In this document: piece by piece, positions 17,818 to 50,262 of the stretch
Position numbering within the stretch: the stretch's first letter is position 1
How the letters are laid out: each line of letters opens with the position of its first letter
DNA from: Geminicoccus sp.
Lineage (GTDB): Bacteria; Pseudomonadota; Alphaproteobacteria; UBA7985
DNA length: 64,000 nt
NCBI GenBank assembly: GCA_002708995.1
Contig: PAPT01000037.1
Coordinates: forward strand, 1-64,000
Direction: 5' to 3'
Made by a program: the position numbers and the translations under genes
Notes under the pieces: model-generated
Databases searched by the model: none
The model's input: only the letters and a program-made list of their open reading frames with translations
What the model was told of the DNA's origin: nothing

Positions 17818-20418
17818 ATGGATATTTCACGCTTCACCGAGCGTGCGCGCAGCATTCTGCAGGCTGCGCAGGGCCTCGCCGCCGAACACAATCACCAGTT
17901 TATCACCGGCTCGCACCTGGGCCTGAGCCTGCTCGACGACGAGTCCGGGCTGGTCGCCCGCCTGCTCAAAATCGCGCAGGTCGATCCTGACCCTGTGCGG
18001 CAGGCGCTGCTCGCCGACCTTGAGGCCATGCCGCAGGTGTCCGGCGAGGGCGCGGAGCAGCTGTTCCTGAACAAGGATATGGGCGCCATCGTCGCCCGCG
18101 CGCAGACGCTGGCTGAGGCCGCCAGTGACCAGTTTGCCACGACGGACCGGCTGCTGCAGGCCCTTATCGAGAACAAGAATGCAGCGGCGGGCAAGGCCTT
18201 CCGCGACGCCGGGGCTGATGCCACCAAGATGGCCACCGCCATCGACTCCGTGCGCAAGGGCAAGACCGCCGACAGCGCCGCTGCCGAAGACGGTTTCGAG
18301 GCGCTGGAGAAATTCACCCGCGACCTGACCGAGGAAGCCGGGGCCGGTCGCCTCGACCCCGTCATCGGCCGCGAGGAAGAAATCCGCCGCGCGGTGCAGG
18401 TCCTTTCGCGCCGGACCAAGAACAACCCGGTGATGATCGGCGAACCGGGCGTGGGCAAGACCGCCATCGCCGAGGGCCTCGCCCTGCGCATCGTCAACGA
18501 CGACGTGCCTGAGAGCCTGTCCGGCAAGCGCCTGCTGGTGCTGGATCTGGGCGCGCTGATCGCCGGATCGAAGTACCGGGGTGAGTTCGAAGAACGGCTC
18601 AAGGCCGTGCTCAAGGACATCGAAGCCGCAGGCGGCAGTATCATTCTGTTCATCGATGAGCTGCACACGCTGGTCGGCGCGGGAAAGACCGACGGCGCCA
18701 TGGACGCCTCCAACATGCTCAAGCCCGCGCTGGCCCGGGGTGAGTTGCACTGTGTCGGCGCGACGACGCTCGACGAGTACCGCGAGTACATCGAGAAAGA
18801 CGCCGCCCTCGCCCGCCGGTTTCAGCCGGTCTACGTCGACGAACCGGGGACGGAGGAAAGCCTGTCGATCCTGCGCGGGATCAAGGAGAAGTACGAGGCC
18901 CACCACGGGGTTCGCATCTCTGATGCTTCGCTGGTTGCGGCCGTGCAGCTGTCCGATCGCTATATCACCGACCGCTTTCTGCCCGATAAGGCCATCGACC
19001 TGATGGACGAGGCTGCCGCTCAGCTGCGGATGGAGGTCGACACCAAGCCCGCTGCGCTGGATGAAATTGATCGCCGCATCGACATGCTCAAAATGGAGAA
19101 GTTTGCGCTGGAAAAGGAAGGCGACGACGGCTCCCGCGAGCGGCTGAAGATCCTGCGGGAAGAGCTCGAAGGCCTCGAACGCCAGTCCGGCGACATGACC
19201 TCCGAGTGGAACGCCGACAAGGCCAAGCTGGCCGAAGCCCAGGCGGTGAAGCGCGAGCTGGACGAAGCCCGGTCCGCGCTCGATATCGCCAAGCGCAGCG
19301 GTGACCTCGGCTCGGCCGGGGAGCTGCAGTACGGCGCCATTCCGACCCTCGAAGAGCGCCTCAAGGCCTTCGAAGACCACGACACGGCGCAGGTGCGCGA
19401 AGTCGTCGGCTCGGATCATGTCGCCCGCGTGGTCGCGCAGTGGACCGGGATTCCGGTTGAAAAGATGATGGAAGGCGAGCGCGAGAAACTGCTGAGCATG
19501 GAGGCCGCGCTGACCGACCGCGTGGTGGGGCAGGAAGCCGCCGTCTCCGCAATCTCCAAGGCTGTGCGCCGGGCGCGGGCCGGGCTGTCCGACCCCAACC
19601 GGCCGCAGGGGAGCTTCCTGTTCCTCGGCCCGACCGGGGTGGGTAAGACCGAGCTGGTGAAGGCCCTCGCCGCCTTCCTGTTCGACGACGACAGCGCCCT
19701 GCTGCGGCTGGACATGTCCGAGTACATGGAAAAGCACGCGGTCAGCCGCCTGATCGGCGCACCGCCGGGCTACGTCGGCTATAGCGAGGGCGGCATCCTG
19801 ACCGAAGCAATCCGGCGGCGACCCTATCAGGTCGTGCTGTTCGACGAGGTCGAGAAGGCGCACCCGGATATCTTCAACCTGCTGCTGCAGGTGCTGGACG
19901 ACGGCCGCCTGACCGACAGTCAGGGGCGGACCGTGGACTTCCGCAATACCATCATCGTGCTGACCTCCAATCTCGGTGCCCAGCTGCTCACCGCCCCCGG
20001 TGCCAGCGCCGATGACGAGCTGGTTAAGGCCGAAGTGATGAAGGTGGTGCGGCAGAGTTTCCGGCCTGAGTTCCTGAACCGGCTGGATGAAACCCTGTTC
20101 TTCGACCGGCTGGCACCGGACGTCATGGACCGGATCGTCGACATTCAGATGCAGCTGCTGGCCGACCGGCTGGCCCAGCGCGATATCGAGGTGACGTGGA
20201 CCGAAGCGGCGAGGCAGTGGCTGGCGGCGGAGGGCTACGACCCACTCTATGGTGCCCGCCCCCTTAAGCGCGTGATCCAACGCGTGGTGCAGGATCAGCT
20301 GGCCGGACAGCTGCTGGATGGATCGGTCAAGGCGGGGGATCAGATCATCGTCGACCAGGTCGGTGCCGCCATTCTGGTCACGAAAGCCGGGGCAGGCACC
20401 GAAGACTTGGTGGCCTGA
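17818..20418 (+). CDS. clpB: ClpB disaggregase
   Basis: 866 residues, full length. An N-terminal Clp-N double repeat (about 1-145), AAA+ module 1 with Walker A GEPGVGKT near 207 and [15 protein letters not shown], the long coiled-coil middle domain (about 400-530, [17 protein letters not shown] and following) that marks ClpB rather than ClpA, and AAA+ module 2 with GPTGVGKT near 604 and the C-terminal small domain. With DnaK it pulls proteins out of aggregates. Preceded by a sigma-32-like promoter. Confidence 0.98.
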
Positions 20419-20439
20419 ACAGCCACCTGCGGGACTGGC

Positions 20440-21909
20440 TTACCCGCCGCCGCCAGCGGTGGGTGACGCCAGTGCTTCGGCCTGATCGAGGCGGGCGATA
20501 ATGGCCCGCTGCTCGTCTTCAAACGCGCTCTTCTTGGCACCGGTCAGCTTCTGCCCCCTCGGCAGGGTCGACTTAAGCGGGTCGATGTGGCGCCCGTTCT
20601 TCTTGATTTCATAGTGCAGGTGGTTGCCGGTCGACGAACCGGTGGTGCCGACGTAGCCGATGACATCGCTCTGCTTGACCCGGGAGCCGACGCGCAGGCC
20701 CTTGGGGAAGCGCGACATGTGGGCGTAGAGCGTCTCATATGTACTGTCGTGACGGATGATGACGTGCTTGCCGTAGCCGCCCGAGTGGATGCGCTTGGCG
20801 ATCACCACCCCGTCGCCCGCCGCCAGAATCCGGGTGCCGCGCGGCGCGGCGAAATCGACGCCCCGGTGCGGGCGGATCTTGCCGGTGATGGGGTGCTTGC
20901 GCTTGGGGTTGAAAGGAGAGCTCATGCGGAAGGGTCGCACCAGCGGCTCGCGCAGCAATGACAGCGAGGAGCTGCAGCTGCGCCTCGCCTGACGGTCATA
21001 AAAACTCGCCCGCCCCTCACTCACGAAGCGGAAGACCTCGCGGCGTCCCTTGCGGGTATCGAAGGACACGTAGTGAATTTTATCGGCATCGACGACCTTA
21101 CCATTGCTGTCGATCAGACCGTCGAACAGGATGCGGAAGCTGTCACCGGGTGAGATATCGCGCTTGAAATCGACCACGCACTGCTGCGCTTGCTCAGCCT
21201 TCTTGATCACTTGATAGGGCAGGCCCAGCGCCTGCGCATCGACCCAGAAGGTGCTCTCGATCTTTCCCTCGGCGACCAGCAGCTTGGAGGTGAATACCGT
21301 CTCATCACGGTGCGCCGTGTAGCCCACGGACGTGCGCTCGACCCAGACCGTGCTGTTGTCGCTGTCCTCGAAATGCAGCGAGATCAGGCGCCCGGGCGCG
21401 CCGGGTTCCACGGTGGCGTCGAGGCGGAAGGAAATCGGCCAGCCGGCCTGTAGCTTGGTCAGCCGGAACACCTCGTTGACGTCGGCGTTGATCTCATTGA
21501 TGTCCGCCCACGCCAGCCCCTGCGCCGTCAGAATACCGGCGAAAGTGTCCCCCCGCTCAACCGTGGTGAAGCGCGCCAGCTCCAGCAGCACCGGCGACTC
21601 AATGGCTAGCGAGAAATCGCGGGCCGCGAGTTCGGACTGGTGCAGGTCGGGGAGCAGGCTGTCGTCAGCAACGGGCTGGCGCAGCTGGGCCATGGACTTC
21701 TTCCCGCGCAGCATCCGGGTCAGAAAGCCGAAATCGATACCACCCTGCCCACGGAATTGGTCGTCCGGCGCGCTGCCGCCGATGGCTGGGGTTCGCGCCG
21801 CTTCGAAATTGCGCTCGAACCGGACCAGCTGGCTGATCCAGTCCGCCTTTGCCGCCCCGGCGAAGGTCAGCATCAGTACAGCAGCAAAAGCGAGGCTCAG
21901 AGACTTCAA
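20440..21909 (-). CDS. Secreted M23 metallopeptidase (MepM-like cell-wall endopeptidase)
   Basis: 489 residues. N-terminal signal peptide (MKSLSLAFAAVLMLTFAGAAKA, cleavage likely after AKA). A middle region resembling the LysM/OapA-like parts of MepM (VERGDTFAGILTAQGLAWADINEI). The C-terminal M23 domain carries both zinc motifs: HRGVDFAAPRGT (H-x3-D) and HLHYE. It should cut peptidoglycan cross-links in the periplasm. It converges with clpB across 21 bases. Substrate bond is inferred from family. Confidence 0.9.
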   Translation of the reverse strand: MKSLSLAFAAVLMLTFAGAAKADWISQLVRFERNFEAARTPAIGGSAPDDQFRGQGGIDFGFLTRMLRGKKSMAQLRQPVADDSLLPDLHQSELAARDFSLAIESPVLLELARFTTVERGDTFAGILTAQGLAWADINEINADVNEVFRLTKLQAGWPISFRLDATVEPGAPGRLISLHFEDSDNSTVWVERTSVGYTAHRDETVFTSKLLVAEGKIESTFWVDAQALGLPYQVIKKAEQAQQCVVDFKRDISPGDSFRILFDGLIDSNGKVVDADKIHYVSFDTRKGRREVFRFVSEGRASFYDRQARRSCSSSLSLLREPLVRPFRMSSPFNPKRKHPITGKIRPHRGVDFAAPRGTRILAAGDGVVIAKRIHSGGYGKHVIIRHDSTYETLYAHMSRFPKGLRVGSRVKQSDVIGYVGTTGSSTGNHLHYEIKKNGRHIDPLKSTLPRGQKLTGAKKSAFEDEQRAIIARLDQAEALASPTAGGGG

Positions 21910-22101
21910 AAGAGCATTCCCTGGAAGGATCAGTCGGGGCTCAACGACGAATAGCCGACGTTACGCACCAACGCTTTGGTTCCGCTTAGCGTTTATCCCC
22001 AAGTCTGTGGCTTGAATAGGGCCATGAGCGCGATTTCTCCTAAAATGCAGCGCATAATGTAGCGAAAGCACCGGCCGACCCCAAGCCCAGCGCGGGCGCT
22101 C

Positions 22102-22135
22102 AAAAAAGCCCCGGTCTGCGGCGCAGACAGGGGCT
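22102..22135 (-). terminator. Rho-independent terminator of the orphan gene at 22244-22747
   Basis: On the minus strand a two-tier hairpin (outer AGCCCC/GGGGCT, inner GTCTGC/GCAGAC) is followed by TTTTTT. It lies about 110 bases past the stop codon of the upstream minus-strand gene. The rest of 21910-22243 shows no gene. Confidence 0.75.
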
Positions 22136-22243
22136 ATTGATACCAGCAGCAAGGCACCGTGCTTCGGTCCCTGCGGTGCGCTGACGCGACGTCCAGACAC
22201 TGCGCCCAGATAATGCGTGTAGACGCTGCGCCCCAACCGTGGG

Positions 22244-22747
22244 TCAGGCGGCGTAGCTCATGTTCGACGACCCGGAACGATCGTCGGTGGCCTGGTCGAA
22301 CAACCGGACCTCCAGATCTGCGCTGGCGCCATCCGACAACTCGAAAATGTCATCATCCACCAGCACCAGCCGACCGCTGTCGCGCAGGCTGCGGATGTGG
22401 GCGGAGGCATTGTTGCCGTGCGTGCTGCGCTTGTAGATCTCGCGCGCGGACTTGGCTTCGTGATGAAGCTGGTTGCGCGAGAACCGGGTCACCCCGTCGA
22501 TCAGGGAGAGTTTGGCCACCGCCGAGAGGAACAGATCCGCACTGGACATGTGGCCAATCCGCATACAGGTCGCATGGGTCGTGCGGATGGCGAGGTTGCG
22601 CTCGGAAGACGAACCGATATCGCTGACGCGCTCTTTCCAGTCGATCTTGGCCAAAACCGGGATCAAATGTTCGACGGCGAAAGCTTCAGAACCCTGAAAC
22701 TCCACCCAAACCTGATCGTGTTCCATCTTCAGTGAGCACTGATCCAT
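22244..22747 (-). CDS. Orphan protein of unknown function, possible C-terminal winged helix
   Basis: 167 residues; I do not recognise the family. The N-terminal half is mixed alpha/beta with KMEHDQVWVEFQGSEAFAVE and HLIPVLAKIDW. The C-terminal part (about 95-150: TRFSRNQLHHEAKSAREIY, NNASAHIRSLRDSGRLVLV, DDDIFELSDG) reads as helix-helix-wing and could be a winged-helix DNA-binding fold, which is inference only. The ATG at 22747 is directly preceded by a 27-base palindrome containing GGAGAG as ribosome-binding site. The upstream region is strikingly AT-rich compared with the rest of the window, a possible sign of transfer. It has its own terminator, so it is a single-gene unit. Confidence 0.7.
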   Translation of the reverse strand: MDQCSLKMEHDQVWVEFQGSEAFAVEHLIPVLAKIDWKERVSDIGSSSERNLAIRTTHATCMRIGHMSSADLFLSAVAKLSLIDGVTRFSRNQLHHEAKSAREIYKRSTHGNNASAHIRSLRDSGRLVLVDDDIFELSDGASADLEVRLFDQATDDRSGSSNMSYAA

Positions 22748-22748
22748 A

Positions 22749-22775
22749 GTGAACTCTCCAAAAAAGAGAGTTCAC
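22749..22775 (-). promoter_or_regulatory. Perfect 10-bp inverted repeat abutting the start codon, covering the RBS
   Basis: GTGAACTCTC and GAGAGTTCAC flank a seven-base A/T-rich spacer; one base separates the palindrome from the ATG of the minus-strand orphan gene. In the mRNA the right arm holds the GGAGAG ribosome-binding sequence, so the hairpin would hide it. It could equally be an operator for an autoregulator. The perfect symmetry is directly visible; the mechanism is inferred. Confidence 0.7.
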
Positions 22776-23128
22776 ATATAGAAATACCTTTAATAAATTT
22801 AGACTGCCAACCAATCACGAATAATTTTGTATTTTTTCTCGTAAAAAGATCGTGCTGCAGAAATAGAAGCGGCATTACGCGAAAAATAGTGTTTTTCGGA
22901 TTTCTAAGGGCCAATTTCCGGCGATTTTCCTTATTTATCGATTCTGTATAAGATTTTTACTAAATTATCCTAGTTAGAATCTAATGTTTGCCTTAGGCAT
23001 TGGGGCGAAAGATGGCCGCAGAGACGGTCCAATCCGGGGGGGTCTTCCACAGGTTGCAGCCCCTGCCGGACCCGGGTGACGCCATTCATGCGGATTGCGA
23101 TCGTTTTTGCCTTGATCCCTAGGGCGTT
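22776..23128. other. AT-rich gene-free region between orphan gene and pseudouridine synthase
   Basis: About 350 bases, the first 210 markedly AT-rich with runs of T and A (TTTGTATTTTTTCTCG and similar). It must contain the promoter of the minus-strand orphan gene; many -10-like sequences occur, so none can be picked. No coding frame looks real. Confidence 0.5.
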
Positions 23129-23818
23129 ATGCCGAATGCAGGCGCCATGCAGCCCTTCATCTACCAACCACCTGCGACCGAGCCGCTGCCGGTGCTCTTC
23201 GCCGACGATAGCCTGATCGTGCTGGACAAGCCCGCCGGGCTGCTGAGCGTGCCCGGACGGCTGGAGGACCACCGCGACAGCCTGCTGACCCGCTGCCTCA
23301 TCGACTTCCCCGATGCGCAAGTGGTGCACCGGCTCGACCTCGCGACATCCGGGGTTCTGGTCATGGCGCGCGGGCTTGAGGCCAACCGCGCCCTGTCCCG
23401 CCAGTTTCAGCAGCGCTCGGTCGCAAAGGCCTATACGGCTGTTGTCGAGGGACGGCCGGAGATGGCGCAGGGCGAAGTAGACCTGCCGCTGATCTGCGAC
23501 TGGCCCAACCGGCCCCGGCAGATCATGGATTTCGAGGTGGGCAAGCCCTCTCAGACCCGTTGGTTTCGAATGGATGACGGAGAGGACTGGCCCGGGATCG
23601 AGAGCACGCGGCTGCGGCTGGAGCCGATCACGGGGCGCTCGCACCAGTTGCGGGTGCACATGGCCGAAATCGGACATGCGATTCTTGGAGACAGTTTCTA
23701 TGCCACCCCGGCAGGGCAAGCAGTGGCCTCGCGCCTGCTGCTGCACGCCTCACGGCTGAGCCTGCGTCATCCGCTCAGCGGCGACCCGCTGACCTTTGAA
23801 GCGCCTTGCCCGTTCTAG
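23129..23818 (+). CDS. RluA-family pseudouridine synthase
   Basis: 229 residues (an ATG at 23147 is an alternative start). Motif II with catalytic Asp is VVHRLDLATSGVLVMAR, and the C-terminal signature is ITGRSHQLRVHMAEIGHAILGD. No S4 domain is present, so it is the short RluA type that modifies U746 of 23S rRNA and U32 of tRNA in E. coli, rather than RluC/RluD. The exact target here is inferred from length and motif. Confidence 0.9.
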   Translation: MPNAGAMQPFIYQPPATEPLPVLFADDSLIVLDKPAGLLSVPGRLEDHRDSLLTRCLIDFPDAQVVHRLDLATSGVLVMARGLEANRALSRQFQQRSVAKAYTAVVEGRPEMAQGEVDLPLICDWPNRPRQIMDFEVGKPSQTRWFRMDDGEDWPGIESTRLRLEPITGRSHQLRVHMAEIGHAILGDSFYATPAGQAVASRLLLHASRLSLRHPLSGDPLTFEAPCPF

Positions 23819-23849
23819 CCTCGGCACACCCTGCCGACCCGTGGCATCG

Positions 23850-24875
23850 TCAGAGGATGGCGAAGCGCTGCCCGACCTGCTCGCCCCTGCTGTTGCGTTC
23901 CGGCGGCAGGGCCACGGGCCGCAGGGCGTCGGCTTCGGCCTCCGAAAGCAGCTTCAATCGCTGGAGCAAGGTGAACAGCCCCCCGGCGGCGACATCCATA
24001 GACCCGTCGAGCGTCTTCAGCGCCAGGCCCCAGCCCCGGTCGCGGATCACGGCCATGAAGTAACCCGCAGCCCCGACCTTGGCGACGATCCGGCCACCCG
24101 TCTCCCGGGCCAGTGCCACCGAAAAATCATCGGTCCCGGCGATGAACCAGGTTTCTTCGGCAACGGCCTCGACCAGTCGTGCCTGTGCCTGCCCGCGCAG
24201 GGTGCCGGTATCCGGCGCGGCGTAGCCCGACATGGCGCGCGCCATCGCTTCGACCGGCAGCGACGGGGTGGGCAGGCCGCAGCCATCGACACCCCAGATC
24301 AGATCGTTGGGGCTGCACCCGCTCAGGGACAGAAGCGCCGCCTCGAAGCGCTGCTGTGCCGGGTGATCGCGGTGGTGGTAGGTGGCTCTGGACCACGACT
24401 GGTGCTGGCACAGGGTGAGAAAGCCGGTGTGCTTGCCGCTGCAGTTGTGGATCTCACGCGCCGGCGGCTGCCCTTCTGCCGCCAGCCGGTCGCAGTCGAC
24501 GGCAAGCTTGGGGCGCGCAGGGCCACAAACCAGCTCGTCGGGCGCGCAGCCGATCCGATCGAGCCACGCGAGCACGGTTTCCACGTGCAGCGCCTCGCCG
24601 TGATGCGACGCACAGCTCAGCGCGAGGTGGCGCTTGCCGAGATCGAAGTGATCCGCGGCGCCGGTCTCCACCAGACCCAGCGCCTGAATGAACTTGAGCG
24701 ACGAGCGGGGAAAGGCGGCGTGGGTCGGGTCGCCAACGCGCAGGATGACCGCGCCGGTGGCCGCGTCAACGACAGCGCCGTGACCGGCGTGGACGGTCTC
24801 GAGGCCTTCGTCGCGCAGCCCGTAGGTCAGGGGCTCGGCCGAAGTATACCAATGGGACGCAGTATCGGGGGTCAT
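23850..24875 (-). CDS. L-asparaginase II family protein
   Basis: 341 residues of the bacterial asparaginase II family (Rhizobium etli AnsA type, unrelated to E. coli AnsB). Motifs seen: FPRSSLKFIQALGLVETGA near the start, SCASHHGE, then HNCSGKHTGFLTLC and GVDGCGLPTPSLP; the Ser-x-x-Lys and Cys-Ser-Gly-Lys stretches are the expected active-site elements. Predicted to hydrolyse asparagine to aspartate and ammonia. Start at MTPDTASHW (24875); an in-frame ATG at 24974 would add an unconserved leader. Converges with the pseudouridine synthase gene. Confidence 0.88.
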   Translation of the reverse strand: MTPDTASHWYTSAEPLTYGLRDEGLETVHAGHGAVVDAATGAVILRVGDPTHAAFPRSSLKFIQALGLVETGAADHFDLGKRHLALSCASHHGEALHVETVLAWLDRIGCAPDELVCGPARPKLAVDCDRLAAEGQPPAREIHNCSGKHTGFLTLCQHQSWSRATYHHRDHPAQQRFEAALLSLSGCSPNDLIWGVDGCGLPTPSLPVEAMARAMSGYAAPDTGTLRGQAQARLVEAVAEETWFIAGTDDFSVALARETGGRIVAKVGAAGYFMAVIRDRGWGLALKTLDGSMDVAAGGLFTLLQRLKLLSEAEADALRPVALPPERNSRGEQVGQRFAIL

Positions 24876-25097
24876 CTTGGAGCCCTTTTGACGTGACTGA
24901 GAGGGGGCGGCACAGCACCAGCCCTGCCGAACAGAGGCCTTTCTATCACCGCTCGCCACGACTGTAGCGCCCAAAACGACGGCCCGAAAGGACGGCCGCT
25001 GCCGGAGCAGAGGCGGCGCCGGGCTTCAGCATGACGGTTGGCGAACCGGGCCGAGGGATGCATTATGCTGTTTCAACTATGCAAATCGGAGACTGCC

Positions 25098-25742: not shown

Positions 25743-26591
25743 TTACTCCAACCGTCTGATCTCGACATGGTGCGGAAACGGAATTTCGATGCCGGCCGCG
25801 TCGAGGGCCTTCTTGGCATCCAGTTTGAAGTTGGCCTGCGCGTCGAAATAGACCGAGCCGTCGGCCCAGGCCCAGACAGAGATGTCGACCGAGAAATCAC
25901 CGAGGTTGGAAACGTAGAGATAGGGCGCTGGGTCGCTGTCCCAGGCTGGATTGTCGGCGAGCACCTTGCGCAGAATATCGCAGACCCGATCGACGTCGCT
26001 GTCGTAGGCGACGCCGACGACGGCCGTCATCCGTCGGCGGCCGAGGCGTGTGTAGTTGTGGATCGGTGCCTGAAACACCGCCGTGTTGGGAATGGACACC
26101 AGCACGTTGTTGATGGTGATGATGTCGGTGCGGAACAAGCCAACGCGGCTGACCGAACCGCCCTCACCCGCGGCCTCGACCCACTCACCGATCTTGATCG
26201 GCCGCAGCACGAGCAGCATGACCCCCGCTGCGACGTTGCTGAGCGTCCCCTGCACCGCCAGACCGATGGCCAGCGCCACGCCACTGAGCAAAGCCAGGAT
26301 GGTTGCGGCCTGCACGCCGAACAGCTGCAGCACCAGCACAACAGCAACAGTTAGGACACCAAAGCGGATCAGCTGCACCAGAACCTTTTCGATCGTCTCC
26401 TCGATCAGGTCGCTGGTCTCGAAGAATGCATTGGCCCAAGCGGAGAGCCGGATCGAAATCACCCAGCCGACGAGCAGCAGCAGCAGCCCCCCTAGCACCT
26501 TGAGCCCGATGGGCAGGACGATATTCAGGATCTGATTGTCGCTCTGCCCGACGATGCCGTCGATGAGAAGGGAAAGATTAAAGCTATCCAT
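25743..26591 (-). CDS. MscS-family small mechanosensitive channel
   Basis: 282 residues. Three N-terminal membrane helices (about 20-45, 65-85, 90-120); the third, pore-lining helix has the Ala/Gly pattern LALLSGVALAIGLAVQGTLSNVAAGVML and is followed by the beta domain signature RPIKIGEWVEAAGEGGSV and NNVLVSIPNTAVF. Such channels release solutes during hypo-osmotic shock. The start at 26591 has GGAGAT upstream; an upstream in-frame ATG is rejected. Located between the tRNA and a repeat-rich intergenic zone. Confidence 0.93.
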   Translation of the reverse strand: MDSFNLSLLIDGIVGQSDNQILNIVLPIGLKVLGGLLLLLVGWVISIRLSAWANAFFETSDLIEETIEKVLVQLIRFGVLTVAVVLVLQLFGVQAATILALLSGVALAIGLAVQGTLSNVAAGVMLLVLRPIKIGEWVEAAGEGGSVSRVGLFRTDIITINNVLVSIPNTAVFQAPIHNYTRLGRRRMTAVVGVAYDSDVDRVCDILRKVLADNPAWDSDPAPYLYVSNLGDFSVDISVWAWADGSVYFDAQANFKLDAKKALDAAGIEIPFPHHVEIRRLE

Positions 26592-26743
26592 GAAGGTATC
26601 TCCGCGTCGATCAGCGATCAAAGAAAGCCGGCGCAGGCTTCATAAAGGTTGAGAGCACCTGACTTTTTGCACGGATATCAACTTAACGATCCGGACCTGC
26701 CAGCGCCAGAGGAAAGGCAGGGCGGCTCTGTTATGCTCAGCAT

Positions 26744-26798: not shown

Positions 26799-26900
26799 GG
26801 TTCTTTAACTTTGCGCGCAAAACGCTCCGATGTGATCGCGCTGGAGCTCATCACGCCAAATGACACTCAAAGTCCTTCGGCAGGATCAGGGCCAACTAAA

Positions 26901-26939
26901 GCGACACTCAAAGCGAAGCGTGTTGAGTGTCAACGGATA
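26901..26939 (+). repeat. Intergenic repeat family 3, copy 1 (hairpin)
   Basis: ACACTCAA (26904-26911) and TTGAGTGT (26923-26930) form a perfect 8-bp inverted repeat; the surrounding AAAGCGAAGCG and CAACGGATA match a second copy at 37469-37507. A further partial ACACTCAAAG occurs at 26863. Confidence 0.6.
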
Positions 26940-26940
26940 G

Positions 26941-27104
26941 GTGGCGCGCTCGGGCCTTAGCCGCGTCGCGGCCTTCGGCCTTCCCACGCGCATTTTCAGT
27001 GAAAAATGCGAAAGGACGTCGGGTCGCGCACAGCGCAGCCTGTCCGTTTGATTGCGCGGGGGAGATTTGTAAGCCGCGAAGCGGCGTCAAATCGAGCACG
27101 CAGC
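26941..27104 (+). repeat. Intergenic inverted-end element, family 1, copy A (164 bp)
   Basis: Left end 26941-26992 and right end 27053-27104 are 52-base imperfect inverted repeats of each other around a 60-base core containing CCTGTCCGTTTGA. Each end has the central palindrome (here GCCGCGTCGCGGC-like on the left and GCCGCGAAGCGGC on the right) and an inner ACGCGCA/TGCGCG border. The right end lies 8 bases past the stop codon of the minus-strand phosphatase gene. Same family at 37247, 38948 and 50108. Confidence 0.85.
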
Positions 27105-27112
27105 CTCCTGCC

Positions 27113-37227: not shown

Positions 37228-37246
37228 CCTCAGGGTCTGGCCTGTG

Positions 37247-37410
37247 GTGGCGCGCTCGGGCCTTGGCCGCTTCGCAGCCTTCGGCCCTCCGAGGCGCATT
37301 ATCAGTGAAAATACAAAAAGACGTCAGATTGTGCGCATCGCGGCCTGTCCGTTTGACTGCGCGGGGAAGATTTGTAAGCCGCAAAGCGGCGTCAAATCGA
37401 GCCCGCAACC
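37247..37410 (+). repeat. Intergenic inverted-end element, family 1, copy B (164 bp)
   Basis: Same orientation and exactly the same length as copy A: left end GTGGCGCGCTCGGGCC, core with CCTGTCCGTTTGA, right end with GCCGCAAAGCGGCG and AAATCGAGCCCGCAACC. Begins 19 bases after the stop codon of the Lrp-type gene on the same strand. Confidence 0.85.
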
Positions 37411-38947: not shown

Positions 38948-39108
38948 GGTTGCGGGCTCGATTTGACGCCGCTTCGCGGCTTACAAATCTCCCCCGCGCA
39001 ACGACCCAAGACAAAAGAAGCCACGCCGGGCTGCCAAGCCCGGCGTGTCCGCTCAGTTGCACGTGGGAGGGCCGAAGGCCGCGAAGCGGCTAAGGCCCGA
39101 GCGCGCCA
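38948..39108 (-). repeat. Intergenic inverted-end element, family 1, copy C (161 bp), variant core
   Basis: Opposite orientation to A and B. Both ends are intact (GGTTGCGGGCTCGATTTGACG at one side is cut here to 20: GGTTGCGGGCTCGATTTGAC; GGCCGAAGGCCGCGAAGCGG at the other). The core differs from A, B and D: it carries CACGCCGGGCT-GCCA-AGCCCGGCGTG, a perfect 11-bp hairpin. The element ends 12 bases past the greA stop codon. Confidence 0.85.
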
Positions 39109-50107: not shown

Positions 50108-50262
50108 GGTTGCGTGCTCGATTTGACGCCGCTTCGCGGCTTACAAAGCTCCCCCGCGCAGTCAAACGGACAGGCCGTGCTTCGCCCTGCCTGACGTTAT
50201 TTATCTGAAAGTGCGCGTGGGAGGGCCGAAGGCCGCGAAGCGGCCAAGGCCCGAACGCGCCA
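50108..50262 (-). repeat. Intergenic inverted-end element, family 1, copy D (155 bp)
   Basis: Reverse orientation. Its two 52-base ends align without gaps at 34 of 52 positions by hand, sharing the central CCGCTTCGCGGC and the inner CTCCC-CGCGCA border. The core has CCTGTCCGTTTGACTGCGC as in A and B. Begins one base after the rpoD stop codon. Confidence 0.88.

Follow-up and report, generated by a model that had tools for sequence, protein, structure and literature searches.

A perfect inverted repeat over the Shine-Dalgarno sequence of a Geminicoccus gene: a candidate one-step templated mutation that may throttle translation

A perfect inverted repeat covering the Shine-Dalgarno (SD) sequence of a small gene was found in the 64,000-nt stretch of Geminicoccus sp. 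DNA analysed here (contig PAPT01000037.1; hereafter the window), and it is missing in the related genomes that carry the same gene. On balance, the probable explanation is a lineage-specific hairpin acting in cis, which arose from one template switch and throttles the translation of a gene under relaxing constraint. According to this explanation, a single template switch during replication would have copied the SD-side sequence, as its reverse complement, over about ten bases upstream of a T6 tract. Once transcribed, the arms would fold into an 11-pair hairpin ending one base before the start codon, and the gene would be translated very poorly at all ordinary temperatures because this hairpin buries its SD. 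The gene may thus be in the course of being silenced, or may be drifting, with the hairpin as either the cause or the consequence.

The repeat, GTGAACTCTC-CAAAAAA-GAGAGTTCAC on the plus strand, occupies positions 22749-22775 and consists of two 10-bp arms and a 7-nt spacer. The gene is encoded on the minus strand (22244-22747) as an intact reading frame of 167 codons and a stop codon, giving a protein of 167 aa. On this strand the final arm base falls one nucleotide short of the ATG (22747), and the SD, GGAGAG at 22754-22759, lies 6 nt upstream of it; the first G of the SD is the last spacer base, and the remaining GAGAG is inside the arm. The upstream arm (22766-22775) reads GTGAACTCTC in the sense strand. 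This arrangement had been described in an earlier note made from the sequence alone, and was seen again here. The same holds for the two flanks of the gene. An intrinsic-terminator-like hairpin with a T6 tail follows the gene at 22102-22135 on the minus strand (-21.7 kcal/mol), in keeping with the view that the gene has its own terminator, and the sister genome G004 retains its stem; a simple consensus scanner reported no terminators at all, probably missing this one because of a single internal mismatch. On the other side, an AT-rich intergenic region (22776-23000) separates the gene from a divergent rluA-like gene, and the adjoining bin 22751-23000 is the lowest in GC (32.8%) of all 250-bp bins, so the gene does lie beside the most AT-rich part of the window.

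Five perfect inverted repeats with arms of at least 10 bp and spacers of 3-12 nt were counted in the window, whereas 12 dinucleotide-preserving shuffles of it averaged 1.0, so that finding one such repeat in 64 kb is unremarkable. The unusual part is its exact placement over an SD, which by a rough estimate would be expected in a few per cent of such windows. No second copy with spacers of 3-12 nt was found in this draft genome, where the palindrome occupies one place only, and none was present in the five congeneric genomes, two of which also lack the gene in incomplete drafts; one of the six genomes searched therefore has it. Within the window, a search allowing up to three mismatches returned the palindrome's own place and no near copy, while single arms with one mismatch occurred at chance level (4 found, 3.1 expected). 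The exact palindrome with its 7-nt spacer had no match in viral contigs.

The gene itself was found in three of the five other congeneric genomes, at 77% (G003), 92% (G004) and 76% (G005) identity. It was found neither in G001 (63% complete) and G002 (72% complete) nor in five further genomes of the order covered by the search. Its order and orientation relative to the rluA-like, asparaginase-like and mscS-like genes are kept in the relatives, these names being a reading of the sequences without a family-library match. In all three relatives the sense strand before the start runs ...TTCGC, then five or six T, then GGAG or GGGAG, and contains no inverted repeat; what is kept in place of the palindrome is the T-run, the GGAG of the SD, which is common to all three, and the TTGACAGTC element considered below. 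Conservation in orthologues, the lack of which the earlier note had itself named as grounds for abandoning its regulatory readings, was accordingly not observed.

The sister contig of G004 is 93.6% identical and aligns without gaps across the palindrome and its near flanks, so the two versions can be compared base by base. Five of the 10 positions in the upstream arm differ from G004, against two of 10 in the SD-side arm; in G004 itself, 4 of the 10 arm positions pair. At four of the five changed upstream-arm positions one state is common to the three relatives, with this genome the sole exception; neither the fifth position nor the two SD-side differences can be polarised. Identity to G004 is 82% for 22776-23128 and 93% for the gene.

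Quasipalindromes are described as turning into perfect or more perfect repeats (PMC7202029) and template switching as able to make perfect stems in one event (PMC8794818), and changes concentrated in one arm and ending in exact complementarity are the expected trace of a quasipalindrome-templated mutation. The present case shows this pattern, in that an imperfect repeat has become a perfect one with changes mostly in one arm, and also this polarity, the changed upstream arm being derived on this branch at four of five positions. Judged from the sequences compared, changes on one arm that make it the exact complement of the other fit one template-switch (quasipalindrome) mutation, and a single templated event is the most likely origin of the palindrome. 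When the 25.5-kb syntenic block was searched for new inverted repeats (arms of at least 9, spacer under 60, at least three changes in an arm), this palindrome was the single hit in this genome, and G004 had none. A control scan, with arms reversed but not complementary, gave 1 and 2 hits in the same block, although in each of these 7 or 8 of the 10 or 11 positions were already matched in the other genome. The scan count does not prove template switching, and the argument consequently rests with the extent to which the arm was rewritten. In the open-access papers searched, nothing was found that joins template switching, a palindrome, the SD and translation, and nothing relevant on SD hairpins with pseudogenes.

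A dispersed repeat of about 160-210 bp was also observed in the window, at 26894-27105 and 37246-37410 on the plus strand and at 38948-39108 and 50108-50262 on the minus strand; it carries conserved inverted-repeat blocks (alignment A6). At least 52 matches were found in this genome (40 of 78 candidates scored) and at least 57 in G004 (40 of 68 scored), while G005 had none and G003 a single short one. It is apparently a recently spread element.

The 27-mer is predicted to fold at -16.1 kcal/mol at 37 °C with 11 pairs (z -5.8 against shuffles). For transcripts started at -32, the predicted cost of freeing GGAG at 37 °C is 10.8 kcal/mol here, compared with 1.3 in G004, 2.4 in G005 and 1.5 in G003, and it is still 9.8 kcal/mol at 45 °C. 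Of 53 non-overlapping open reading frames (ORFs) picked from the window, 28 have an SD of at least four bases, and at 25 °C the gene ranks first of these 28 in occlusion (12.2 kcal/mol, followed by 11.1 and 9.6, with a median of 3.6), on ORF starts that were set by rule rather than curated, so that some of the 28 may be wrong. According to work quoted in PMC3669281, 1.4 kcal/mol costs about 10-fold in translation; the same paper reports that perfectly paired SD variants abolished reporter expression at both low and high temperature.

These values depend on where the transcript begins. A promoter-like element, TTGRCAGTCWAAANNNATTA, lies at 22791-22810 on the minus strand, and its -35-like sequence is TTGACA in all three relatives and TTGGCA in this genome, which has lost a shared base. 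From a -10-like TA located 18 bp from the -35-like element, we infer a transcript start near -30, which would place the whole stem in the transcript. The TTGRCAGTCWAAANNNATTA element may be promoter-like or operator-like, and its version in G005, TTGACAGTCAA, is an 11-bp dyad in itself. In its conserved form, TTGACAGTC(T/A)AAA-N3-ATTA, this element lies about 45-65 bases upstream of the ATG, and a search allowing one mismatch at most found a single copy in each of the four genomes, always at this gene.

The strongest rival explanation, which is unlikely though it deserves some weight, is that the palindrome is neutral, having arisen by chance or by templating without any effect on expression, and that the excess of amino acid replacements described below is independent of it. 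About one perfect repeat of such size is expected per 64 kb, and, according to the folding model, transcripts begun within the upstream arm (-20 or later) would have a largely free SD, the cost at 37 °C falling to 3.6 kcal/mol for a transcript from -20 and to 3.6 or less for later starts. Against this, a start near -30 keeps the whole stem, and even a transcript from -24 would pay 8.9 kcal/mol at 37 °C.

It is quite unlikely that the hairpin is a working RNA switch which opens under some condition, be it temperature, a ligand, a small RNA or a protein. Such switches are ordinarily built around a sequestered SD; the reading frame here is intact, and the perfect stem is predicted to bury the SD. 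However, the hairpin is missing in all three orthologues, and the SD opening cost at 45 °C remains far from the range of the thermosensing ibpA hairpins of Pseudomonas, for which -4.1 to -7.6 kcal/mol is given in PMC3669281, where RNA thermometers are said to depend on destabilising mismatches and loops. Thermometers are marked by marginal stability and by conservation, and here the opening cost is high at both 37 and 45 °C and the hairpin is not shared by the orthologues. An Rfam search over 20000-25000 returned four matches (E <= 1), all below the gathering score, the best (E 0.19) being unrelated and none overlapping the palindrome. Since the palindrome is absent in orthologues, has no second copy in this draft genome and, for a thermometer, forms too stable and too perfect a stem, a regulatory switch is unsupported. 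The suggestion that an RNA hairpin controls translation therefore survives in part: an 11-pair stem burying the SD is predicted, while its sensing of temperature or ligand is not borne out.

The protein has also changed unusually on this branch. Ten replacements (R10H, R14W, F48S, I60T, K67M, G69S, A77V, Y117H, M134I and R142S, numbered from Met) mark sites at which this genome departs from a residue common to the other three, compared with one in G004 (Q18R; two-sided binomial p 0.012). A77V affects an alanine found in 12 of 13 other aligned family members. The same count in the neighbours, given as this genome to its sister, is 3:1 for the rluA-like, 0:0 for the asparaginase-like and 2:2 for the mscS-like gene. 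Polarised changes of all kinds number 14:2 in the gene and 30:40 in the three neighbours (Fisher p 0.0017), with 19 ambiguous sites in the gene. On this branch the gene has polarised replacement to synonymous changes of 11:3, and the pooled neighbours of 9:21 (Fisher p 0.0037), as against 1:1 and 8:32 on the G004 branch (p 0.39), although the polarisation favours replacements because the synonymous sites of the outgroups have diverged.

A home-made codon branch model, in which the internal branches are saturated, gave an omega of 0.22 for this branch and 0.040 elsewhere (likelihood ratio test p 3.4e-4), with omega = 1 not rejected; with G004 as foreground the estimate was unstable (omega 12, p 0.096). 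The branch tests were also significant for the asparaginase-like neighbour, but towards stronger constraint. Pairwise omega against G004 is 0.209, which is elevated but not neutral and is the third highest among 26 ORFs chosen to have an omega below 0.7. The frame is intact, without a stop. It would appear that the protein is under relaxed constraint on this branch and that the gene is no pseudogene yet, although adaptive change is also possible. It is distinctly unlikely that the template switch made a new translational control element in one step and that the protein has since changed adaptively.

Synonymous divergence from G004 was observed to be uneven over 20443-23815 and 25746-26621, with dS values of 0.54 for an M23-peptidase-like, 0.35 for the rluA-like and 0.31 for the mscS-like gene, compared with 0.05-0.23 for the other ORFs of the block. 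It is as if parts of the block had recombined with a more distant donor.

The gene is a member of an uncharacterised protein family that is thinly spread through the Alphaproteobacteria. It had been called an unrecognised orphan, and it is indeed unrecognised, the protein having no match above the curated cut-offs in Pfam and NCBIfam and none at E <= 1 in PADLOC and PHROGs. The term orphan is apt in part only, given the presence of the gene in three of five congeners and its remote relatives in other Alphaproteobacteria. Profile searches recovered four short relatives, which are 23-27% identical to the window protein and have open frames of 165-197 codons, three among 385 genomes of the class (G132, G334 and G054) and one among 397 of the phylum (G563). 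Weak profile matches were also obtained in 20 longer open frames of one alphaproteobacterial family (f25), in six of which (L014, L016, L017, L024, L031 and L032) the C-terminal domain, DLxxAAAxL...G...F.R, was confirmed by a motif scan of one strand. Read singly were L013 and, in addition to it, four of the 20 loci (L014, L016, L019 and L024), of which L019, taken in the wrong orientation, showed nothing. These six are long, acidic proteins with open frames of 568-868 codons. An N-terminal 'EGxxxF' motif is present in the short proteins and in L016, the one long protein read to its start, for which Pfam gave no match above cut-off and NCBIfam none at all. Like the members of this family, the window protein has the C-terminal domain and the 'EGxxxF' motif; unlike the long f25 proteins, with their long acidic middle, it is short and has no such middle. 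No match to the window protein was found in phages or plasmids, and none was confirmed in viral contigs (alignment A1). The same was true of L009 in plasmids, of L010 and L016 in phages and plasmids, and, as regards confirmed matches in viral contigs, of L013 and alignment A2.

A further, very unlikely reading is that the palindrome is a DNA operator, with its dyad bound by the gene's own product or by some other regulator that represses the gene. A perfect dyad beside the start of a gene with weak C-terminal helix-turn-helix-like signals would suit this reading. The signals are a match of the window protein to HTH_20 (E 0.19) and one of a distant relative to AbiEi (E 0.0013), weak hints of a nucleic-acid-binding domain as far as profile comparison goes. 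Across all searches with the protein and its relatives, PHROGs and PDB gave weak matches only, and PADLOC weak AbiEi-like and related ones for one relative; no relative was found among solved structures at E <= 0.1. The two AlphaFold models are of low confidence (mean pLDDT 41.5 and 48.2), and while the first (41.5) follows a helix-strand-helix-helix-strand-strand order, the model of the C-terminal part (48.2) disagrees, so that a winged helix in the protein would be a guess. Moreover, the palindrome has no second genomic copy with spacers of 3-12 nt, no near copy in the window and no counterpart at the three orthologues, and the conserved cis element of the gene, TTGACAGTC(T/A)AA, lies further upstream. 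The earlier proposals of an autorepressor and of further copies marking a regulon thus found no regulon, no conservation and no confident nucleic-acid-binding fold to build on.

An assembly or sequencing artefact is highly improbable: the palindrome is known from one draft genome only (42 contigs, 94% complete), but it aligns gap-free with its near flanks to the sister genome, and the neighbouring genes show normal constraint, which argues against general sequence errors.

If a template-switch hairpin throttling translation is the right explanation, this locus would offer a clean case from nature in which one mutational step places an RNA hairpin over a ribosome-binding site and coincides with loss of constraint on the gene, and the 93.6% identical sister would serve as the unmutated control. 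It would also caution against taking every perfect palindrome over an SD for an operator or a sensor.

The case can be compared with two kinds of known system. As in the quasipalindrome template switching described for lacZ in Escherichia coli (PMC7202029) and for RNA stems (PMC8794818), weakly paired arms have here become a perfect repeat, and, as in quasipalindrome mutation, the changes lie mainly in one arm and can be explained by one reverse-complement copy. Unlike the lacZ reporter work, the present case is a difference between natural genomes that falls over an SD, with the event deduced from the sequences. With SD-sequestering hairpins (de Smit and van Duin, in PMC3669281) and ROSE-like thermometers it shares a predicted stem that takes in the SD beside the start codon. 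In contrast to ROSE-like thermometers, however, this stem is perfect, without destabilising mismatches in its -16.1 kcal/mol fold, and is not conserved. The hairpin therefore resembles permanently repressed thermometer mutants more than it does the thermometers themselves.
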